Virus record (IMG/VR): IMGVR_UViG_3300046777_000904 | Span: 1 to 36,205 of that record | DNA: 36,205 nucleotides | Source of the DNA: a virus | Direction: 5' to 3' (one strand) | Shown here: positions 1,383 to 2,090 of the stretch, piece by piece | How positions within the stretch are numbered: position 1 is the stretch's first letter | Layout: the number at the start of each line of letters is the position of its first letter | Made by a program: the position numbers and the translations under genes | Notes under the pieces: model-generated | The model's input: only the letters and a program-made list of their open reading frames with translations | What the model was told of the DNA's origin: nothing | The model's database searches: none

Positions 1383-1545
1383 TGCCGAAGCCTGTTCCAT
1401 CTGCAACAGGGTGACCAGCGCATGGGATAGTTTCACGGCATGGCTGGAAAGGAAAGCGTGTGAAAGCGCACAATTCCACTACAAGCGTATATCCGGGAAG
1501 GATGGAATCTGCGAACATGCGAACAAGCATAAAGCGAATTATTAA
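1330..1545 (+). CDS. Small exported cysteine-rich protein
   Basis: The product has 71 residues. Residues 1-21 are a classical signal peptide: MKK, a hydrophobic core (AILICAVLMAV) and a small-residue end TSTDAEA. The mature part holds four cysteines (positions 22, 25, 44, 61), with Cys22 and Cys25 in a CSIC motif. Two disulfides in the periplasm are possible. The Cys directly after the predicted cut site raises the alternative of a lipoprotein, although Glu at -2 fits poorly. It starts inside the previous gene (53 nt overlap) and its stop overlaps the next ATG by one base. I know no family for it. Confidence 0.55.
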   Translation: MKKAILICAVLMAVTSTDAEACSICNRVTSAWDSFTAWLERKACESAQFHYKRISGKDGICEHANKHKANY

Positions 1546-1799
1546 TGGTACAGACACCATTAGAACAAGTCATAGGTGCCCTGCAAAGGGAACTTGCAAG
1601 ATACCGGGCGCATGACATTGTTAAGAATATCCAGCGATGTATTGACATTGCACATCTATACCACGAGATTGAAAATGAGTACACATTAAAAGTCTATGCG
1701 GATGGTTTTAAGGATGCCGTCAGAATTAAAGACCGTGATGCGGTTGAGAAAGAGAAGGCGGCGCAGCAACTAACGAAAGGCCGCAAGGCTGGACGTTAA
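1545..1799 (+). CDS. Hypothetical alpha-helical early protein, last of its operon
   Basis: The product has 84 residues, is highly charged and predicted helical throughout (for example LEQVIGALQRELARYRAHDI). The C-terminus is basic (KGRKAGR). I see no known domain. Its ATG overlaps the previous stop by one base (TAATG), the signature of coupled translation. It is the last gene of the early operon before the tRNA-derived elements and the terminator at 2058-2087. Confidence 0.65.
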   Translation: MVQTPLEQVIGALQRELARYRAHDIVKNIQRCIDIAHLYHEIENEYTLKVYADGFKDAVRIKDRDAVEKEKAAQQLTKGRKAGR

Positions 1800-1805
1800 A
1801 AGGTT

Positions 1806-1895
1806 TCCCGGTTGGCGTAAACGTGAATGAATAGCGTTGTAAAGGTAACGCCCTACATTGTGTAGGTGATGCTGGTTCGAATCCAGCACCGGGAA
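1806..1895 (+). tRNA. tRNA-derived element 1, abnormal anticodon loop
   Basis: Four cloverleaf stems can be read. The acceptor is TCCCGGT (1806-1812) with ACCGGGA (1888-1894), seven perfect pairs. The D stem is GCGT (1834-1837) with ACGC (1848-1851) around a GG-containing loop, preceded by the usual T8-A9 (1832-1833). The anticodon stem is CTACA (1853-1857) with TGTAG (1861-1865). The T arm is GCTGG-TTCGAAT-CCAGC (1871-1887). The variable loop is a normal 5 nt. Two things are wrong for a working tRNA: the anticodon loop is only 3 nt (TTG) rather than 7, and 19 extra bases separate acceptor and D arm. No CCA is encoded. It is either a decayed tRNA or a tRNA mimic. Confidence 0.4.
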
Positions 1896-1902
1896 CGGAA
1901 TA

Positions 1903-2026
1903 GTCAGGGTGGGCAATTGGTAGGCCCTAGGGATCGACTTCGCCTGAGCAATTTGATTAATACGAAGCGATATGCAAACTATATCTTCGAAAGCTTTGCC
2001 TGATGGTTCGAATCCATCTCCTGACA
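1903..2026 (+). tRNA. tRNA-derived element 2, expanded anticodon domain
   Basis: The ends are tRNA-like. The acceptor is GTCAGGG (1903-1909) with TCCTGAC (2019-2025), one G-T pair. The D arm is GGC-A-ATTGGTA-G-GCC (1912-1926). The T arm is GATGG-TTCGAAT-CCATC (2002-2018). Between D and T arms lie about 75 nt instead of the usual 22 to 40. They contain a hairpin, CGAAG (1963-1967) with CTTCG (1985-1989), extended by ATAT/ATAT around the loop GCAAACT. The same CGAAG can also pair with an earlier CTTCG (1938-1942). No anticodon with T33 can be placed. It follows element 1 by 7 nt and shares its T loop. It may be a tRNA mimic, a tRNA with an insertion or a decayed gene. Confidence 0.35.
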
Positions 2027-2057
2027 CGGATTTTTCATAAGCAGTTGTTTAGTCCGG

Positions 2058-2087
2058 ACGGGGGTTTCTACCCCTGTTCCTTTTTTT
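2058..2087 (+). terminator. Rho-independent terminator of the early operon
   Basis: An 8-bp stem, ACGGGGGT (2058-2065) with ACCCCTGT (2070-2077), closes on the loop TTCT and is followed by TCC and seven T. One pair is G-T. It ends the early operon and the tRNA-derived elements. The terminator at 25714-25746 uses the same TTCT loop. Confidence 0.85.
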
Positions 2088-2090
2088 GAC

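Follow-up and report, generated by a model that had tools for sequence, protein, structure and literature searches.

tRNA mimicry as such is already known, and phage T4 has, beside its tRNA genes, the stable RNAs 'species 1 and 2' (RNA C/D), which resemble the elements described here in being phage RNAs that do not decode. The T5 and T6 tRNA-Tyr are phage tRNAs that neutralise tRNA-targeting defences (PMC11555353, PMC13096335), and anticodon-loop variants occur among the phage tRNAs that counter such defences (PMC10264068). The tRNA-targeting defence Cas12a3 engages tRNA through its tail, acceptor and T arm, and removal of the loop is tolerated. Here we analyse two tRNA-derived elements that stand head to tail, with a 7-nt gap between them, at positions 1806-2026 of IMG/VR record IMGVR_UViG_3300046777_000904, an uncultivated phage whose whole 36,205 bp is called the window below. 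Both have full acceptors and canonical TTCGAAT T arms, as a preliminary description of this DNA had stated and as the sequence, together with an RF00005 match of 38.7 bits for element 1, confirms. The observation is broader than first noted, in that element 1 represents a phage RNA family (type 1), which is large, strongly conserved and apparently undescribed; element 2 likely belongs to a second plan (type 2), judging by its frame.

The elements share with canonical tRNAs (RF00005) and phage tRNAs the 7-bp acceptor, the TTCGAAT T arm, the D stem, U8, A14, A15, G18G19, A21 and U48, and the N73-C74 end. They differ in that both types are without the 7-nt anticodon loop, type 1 having an extra covarying hairpin in the D loop and type 2 a large domain replacing the anticodon arm. 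With the anti-defence phage tRNAs they have in common a proposed supply or decoy role against host tRNA cleavage, but those tRNAs truly decode, whereas the present elements cannot. Type 1 is apparently tRNA mimicry, known in kind, in an undescribed form: Rfam 15 contains no family for it, its members scoring weakly against RF00005 or not at all, and we found no description in the open-access literature, although an earlier description elsewhere is possible. We tentatively favour, without calling it probable, a reading in which these RNAs are stable tRNA decoys that undergo tRNA-like processing and tie up host factors that recognise a tRNA by its acceptor, T arm or elbow.

Element 1 is built as follows:

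1806-1895, plus strand: element 1, a type-1 non-decoding tRNA-like RNA gene (N73 = A1895, C74 = 1896)
1806-1812, plus strand: 5' strand of the acceptor stem, TCCCGGT, pairing with ACCGGGA at 1888-1894 (perfect, 7 bp)
1815-1818, plus strand: 5' strand of the D stem, pairing with 1848-1851 (helix 2 of the 55-member alignment)
1821-1837, plus strand: extra D-loop hairpin ACGT-GAATGAATA-GCGT, between A15 and G18G19, with its conserved loop at 1825-1833
1852-1866, plus strand: shortened 'anticodon' hairpin CCTACA-TTG-TGTAGG, six pairs with a TTG loop, without a usable anticodon loop
1871-1887, plus strand: T arm GCTGG-TTCGAAT-CCAGC, perfectly paired

The canonical 7-bp acceptor, 5-bp T arm and conserved T loop are all present in element 1, which lacks the 5-bp anticodon stem with a 7-nt loop and U33 (its loop is TTG) and the canonical D loop of 8-11 nt without an internal hairpin (its D loop holds the covarying insert). 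The three-base TTG loop and the 19 extra bases had been noted correctly; the stem below that loop has six pairs (CCTACA/TGTAGG), not five, and the extra bases, AACGT-GAATGAATA-GCGTT, are a hairpin inside the D loop. All the features that define type 1 can be read directly in the sequence, and the fold has a z-score of -4.1, with none of 200 shuffles folding as well. A tRNA-Tyr(GTA) offered here by ARAGORN was rejected: its anticodon falls in the conserved hairpin region and splits the hairpin, and several pairs of its anticodon stem are mismatched.

Relatives of element 1 define the family. Among the terminase relatives of the window phage are long Rfam tRNA matches that carry the same extra hairpin, and we define type 1 by TGGYGTAA, a 4-bp hairpin with a GAAURAAUA loop, a short anticodon hairpin, and a tRNA acceptor and T arm. 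The search pattern, TTGGYGTAANNNKGAATRAATA, was built from the D loop alone; it matches at least 120 stretches of IMG/VR viral contigs, nearly all of which continue into a tRNA-like acceptor and T arm. Fifty-five non-redundant members were aligned over their full length, their extraction requiring at least six acceptor pairs and at least four T-stem pairs. Covariation in the acceptor and T stem is therefore partly selected, through these minima and through the T7 fixed by the pattern, while the 3' side of the extra hairpin and the anticodon stem are free of selection by either pattern or extraction. Standard pairs make up 95.3% of the pair cells in the 55 members, and covariation scores 0.813, where shuffles give 0.246 ± 0.012 and shifted structures 0.10-0.18. 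All five helices covary, including the D-loop hairpin and the shortened 'anticodon' hairpin. Each of them has double-sided changes at several pairs except the D stem, where there is a single one (T-A versus C-G) in addition to U-A/U-G and G-U/G-C changes. In the extra hairpin every cell is paired and all four pairs change on both sides, around a loop, GAAURAAUA, that is invariant and forms the most conserved part of the molecule. Compensatory changes occur in six of the seven acceptor pairs, pair 7:66 being invariant because the pattern fixes T7. The covariance model from related phages that had been proposed as a check (R1, 55 sequences) scores 1805-1895 at 88.8 bits (E 3.6e-19), the window itself being one of the 55 training sequences.

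The odd anticodon region could suggest a decaying tRNA gene or a chance resemblance. This explanation is extremely unlikely and is refuted for element 1 by the covariation and by tests of own versus foreign partners in the relatives, which exclude chance. In a comparison free of the selection noted above, a full acceptor and T arm occur in 73% of distinct pattern hits (n = 88) but in 0.8% with a foreign acceptor, and the extra hairpin forms in 86 of the 88 hits but in 14% with a foreign partner. Indeed, with acceptors perfectly compensated in relatives and every helix covarying, the earlier judgement that element 1 is not simple decay holds, and structure in its family is under selection.

Element 1 cannot decode. 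Its family retains the tRNA core (U8, A14, A15, G18G19, A21, U48, the T loop and the 7-bp acceptor), while positions 26-44, which span 19 nt in a canonical tRNA, span 10-18 nt in all 55 short-form members (those with longer arms are excluded from this count). None of the 55 restores an anticodon arm of normal size or shows a normal 7-nt loop; their best-paired 'anticodon' loops are mostly of 3-6 nt and have no common sequence, although the stem covaries. In long-arm members the arm is a kinked hairpin with a recurring ATAGYAT...TTAA motif and not an anticodon loop. Ten of these (L099, L120, L128, L138, L155, L158, L176, L184, L196 and L203) have an NNRAT-AGY-ATYNN hairpin followed by TTAA in the anticodon arm, with compensatory changes as judged by eye. 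With the core retained and a normal-size arm absent from every short-form member, the element 1 RNA is tRNA-shaped and non-decoding, and the proposal that it mimics a tRNA, which its covarying helices also favour, is supported. The two findings named beforehand as refuting, normal 7-nt loops in relatives and acceptor stems without compensatory changes, were both looked for, and the family shows the opposite of each. A second proposal, that the element is a precursor whose insert is removed, is unsupported for element 1, since the D-loop hairpin is conserved and covaries and no normal anticodon arm lies beyond it.

Type 1 is essentially phage-borne within the sequences searched, as few true members occur in bacterial genomes. 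Thirty bacterial or archaeal genome contigs match the pattern, four of them real members (L215, L219, L221 and L231): one is in a Verrucomicrobia metagenome-assembled genome (MAG) and three, near-identical, are in MAGs labelled Lishizhenia, Chitinophaga and Flavobacteriales. When 395 sampled Bacteroidota genomes were searched by covariance, one had a strong match, namely the search's centre genome. Exact search found no close copies of element 1 in viral contigs, and BLAST of the window region and the type-1 core against GenBank phages and plasmids found no true type-1 isolate. Among type-1 loci 5 kb or longer, 55 of 70 are without an adjoining ordinary tRNA gene, which makes a role in codon supply unlikely. 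Several of the terminase relatives (L079-L081, L084) conserve, about 0.4 kb upstream of the terminase, a sequence resembling tRNA-Gly(TCC) whose T loop, TTCGGAG, is degenerate.

Element 2 keeps a tRNA frame around an enlarged middle:

1903-2025, plus strand: element 2, a type-2-like tRNA frame with an enlarged anticodon domain (A73 = 2026, C74 = 2027)
1912-1926, plus strand: D arm with a GGC-A-ATTGGTAG-GCC core and G18G19, resembling the type-2 D arm TGGCGGAATTGGTAGACGC
1927-2001, plus strand: enlarged domain in the place of the anticodon arm, 75 nt between the D and T arms
2002-2018, plus strand: T arm GATGG-TTCGAAT-CCATC

Its acceptor, GTCAGGG/TCCTGAC, has 7 bp including one G-U. The alternative CTTCG/CGAAG pairings that had been described within the roughly 75 nt of the middle are found at 1927-2001, where CGAAG at 1963-1967 can pair with CTTCG at 1938 or at 1985. 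A pseudoknot between GATAT (1969-1973) and ATATC (1981-1985) is possible, with a loop GCAAA (1974-1978) facing TTTGC (1995-1999). The elements resemble tmRNA in their tRNA-like ends, in a large insert that replaces the anticodon arm and in this possible pseudoknot, but they have a D stem, lack G3-U70 and are much shorter; in the window, ARAGORN finds no tmRNA and the best Rfam tmRNA score is 9.3 bits against a cut-off of 84.

Removal of the insert is also unlikely for element 2. ARAGORN in intron mode (-i) does offer it as a tRNA-Leu(CAA) with a 54-nt intron, as expected if these were ordinary tRNA precursors with spliced-out inserts, but the candidate was rejected: three pairs of its stem are G-U or U-G, ARAGORN in this mode also reports an intron tRNA on the opposite strand that is spurious, and no Rfam intron family matches in the window. 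Type-1 members, moreover, have no normal anticodon arm for splicing to restore, and we regard this explanation as very improbable for the locus.

Type 2 is defined here by an AGTCAGG acceptor, a Leu-like D arm TGGCGGAATTGGTAGACGC, an ACAGG T stem (T arm ACAGGTTCGAATCCTGT) and a variable insert. A pattern for the 5' frame collected at least 182 distinct elements, which occur beside type-1 elements and in many other phages, their middles of about 20-140 nt (median 57.5) replacing the anticodon arm. The T arm, which the pattern does not fix, has a commonest base at 77-100% in most columns, and among the 182 matches listed U48 is present in 162, A73 in 161 and C74 in 172. At 7 of 102 loci a strict type-2 frame is found no more than 600 nt from a type-1 element; the figure for random positions is 1.6%. 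Element 2 shares with type 2 the AGTCAGG (with a register shift of one pair), AATTGGTAG and the insert size, and differs in its T stem, GATGG.

Several further enlarged or Leu-like plans occur in these contigs. Type-2-like elements with a hairpin or insert at the D-loop position of type 1 are found at L053:3022-3159, L359 (a 133-nt element), L095:1690-1825 (minus strand) and L088:1429-1578, the apex of the insert, GGTGTCC, being conserved in L053 and L359. Elements of a third enlarged tRNA-like plan, about 142 nt long and beginning GCTCGTATAACAGGTAGTGTGGTAGCTCC, lie inside tRNA arrays (L103:8333-8475, minus strand; L121:2410-2551, plus strand), and a fourth, beginning AGTCAGGTGGGCGTAATGAGGGA, has the same acceptor and a different D arm (L159, L339, L341). 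Leu-like phage tRNAs with AGTCAGG or AGTTAGG acceptors, a class-II variable arm and 8-nt anticodon loops, which ARAGORN reads as caag or aaag, are present at L184:4228-4320 and L197:4491-4583 (both minus strand) and in L246.

The contrast between frame and insert bears on an alternative that we rank second after the decoy reading and hold to be unlikely, in which stability and processing come from the frame of acceptor, D and T arms and the working part is the inserted domain, binding a protein or pairing with target RNAs. Within one contig, type-2 frames are 94% alike (0.94) while their inserts are no more alike than shuffled ones (0.397 versus 0.397, 43 pairs), up to eight elements stand at one locus, and some middles form subfamilies conserved across phages; the invariant GAAURAAUA loop of type 1 would likewise fit a working domain. 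Against it, the type-2 inserts exceed shuffled sequence only mildly in stability (mean z -0.85), and a closing stem is no commoner in them than by chance. A broader and rather doubtful possibility is that the tRNA fold serves phages widely as a scaffold for presentation, a conserved, host-processed frame of acceptor, D arm and T arm showing either a fast-evolving domain (type 2, several different ones per phage) or a fixed hairpin (type 1), so that these would be a large class of trans-acting RNAs in phage-host conflict that never decode.

Both elements continue into A73-C74-GGA. In type 1, C74 follows the discriminator in 54 of 90 cases, N73 varies (A 32, T 21, C 20, G 17) and positions -1 and 73 pair in 38 of 55 members, against a shuffle mean of 20.4 and a maximum of 32 in 5000. 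It is improbable that the RNAs are aminoacylated, donating the amino acid outside translation, or that they sequester a synthetase. The intact acceptor and T arm and, in type 2, the Leu-like D arm and frequent A73 would suit this, but the type-1 acceptor and discriminator vary freely, and the window ORFs scanned, which cover part of the genome, included no recognisable gene for a synthetase or transferase.

The surroundings of the elements contain two further features:

1545-1799, plus strand: 84-aa open reading frame (ORF), its stop codon 6 nt 5' of element 1
2056-2089, plus strand: putative intrinsic terminator ending the transcript, a hairpin at 2056-2079 with a 10-bp stem, then CTTTTTTTGA (consensus match only)

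Pfam and PHROG searches with the 84-aa ORF gave no matches. The opening of the record (within 1-200) recurs near its end (within the last 200 bases) with about one mismatch, so the genome is probably complete and either circular or terminally redundant; IMG/VR gives it no completeness flag. Protein family matching identifies a terminase, a portal and a tail tape-measure protein in the window, which holds no ordinary tRNA gene; a search for a helper gene among the first window ORFs returned only DUF6291, a glycosyltransferase, a methyltransferase and structural genes. An antisense ORF of 85 aa (1770-2027, minus strand) spans both elements and is probably due to chance.

The 84-aa ORF is probably co-transcribed with both elements, and tRNA-processing enzymes would then excise the RNAs. 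The same arrangement, with element 1 starting so close behind a stop codon and a terminator after element 2, could be taken to mean that the tRNA-like folds act in cis, directing RNase P/Z to cut or protect phage mRNA, the free RNA having no function. This is improbable: processing signals would need no conserved loop on a D-loop hairpin, and several large phages have copies of type 2 amid their ordinary tRNA genes.

In the decoy reading, host enzymes would release both RNAs from an early-region transcript, with RNase P cutting at the 5' end, 3' trimming and CCA completion, and the products would persist as stable L-shaped molecules. Element 1 keeps the tRNA core and elbow, adds the D-loop hairpin with its fixed loop and has its anticodon arm reduced to a plain hairpin; element 2 keeps the acceptor, D-arm and T-arm frame and carries its large domain in the anticodon-arm position. 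Acting in trans and outside translation, they would bind factors that read the tRNA acceptor, T arm and elbow, tRNA-cutting anti-phage nucleases for example, and such a partner would give them an anti-defence role. We prefer this reading because the retained parts are those read by RNase P, the CCA-adding enzyme, EF-Tu and tRNA-targeting defences (Cas12a3). Furthermore, the frequency of the post-discriminator C among the listed type-2 matches is like that of ordinary tRNAs in the same contigs (353 of 376).

Several observations weigh against it. We know of no tRNA-cutting defence reported to read a D-loop hairpin, the most conserved part of type 1. This hairpin may serve one specific partner as a binding site and not be the surface of a general decoy; its fixed loop is unexplained by a general decoy and offers the best handle on the partner, and the variable type-1 acceptor sequences do not point to one enzyme. 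For element 2, the overall fold is not unusual (z -0.77), so the evidence rests on the frame; the Rfam tRNA model reaches its T arm only (12.9 bits), and two scans of viral contigs found no direct relative, including of its D arm.

The BLAST search against GenBank phages and plasmids led to Porphyromonas phages, which offer a parallel. Ten Porphyromonas gingivalis phage records contain an unannotated tRNA-like element whose plan looks similar to type 2, just upstream of the transposase gene or overlapping its annotated start. Its 3' part is 93-100% conserved, its middle is either a very small hairpin or a domain exceeding 50 nt (BK068093, BK068090, BK068091), and in several records the first acceptor pair is mismatched. 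One such element of these transposable phages lies at L242:1408-1527 (BK068093 3407-3526), with others in L371, L373 and L376. In Hankyphage p00 there is no gap upstream of the transposase able to hold such an element, and the parts we consulted of the paper describing the P. gingivalis phages mention tRNA genes in no other role than as insertion sites. Since P. gingivalis lysogens with similar elements are in culture, direct tests at the RNA level are feasible.

Together, these findings suggest that many phages produce false tRNAs whose purpose is not to read the genetic code. If this is true, many odd, undetermined or unannotated phage tRNAs would form a class of structured RNA apart, with a function of its own, and phages would exploit the tRNA fold without translation, which provides a testable lead on why phages carry tRNA genes, beside codon supply and anti-defence.
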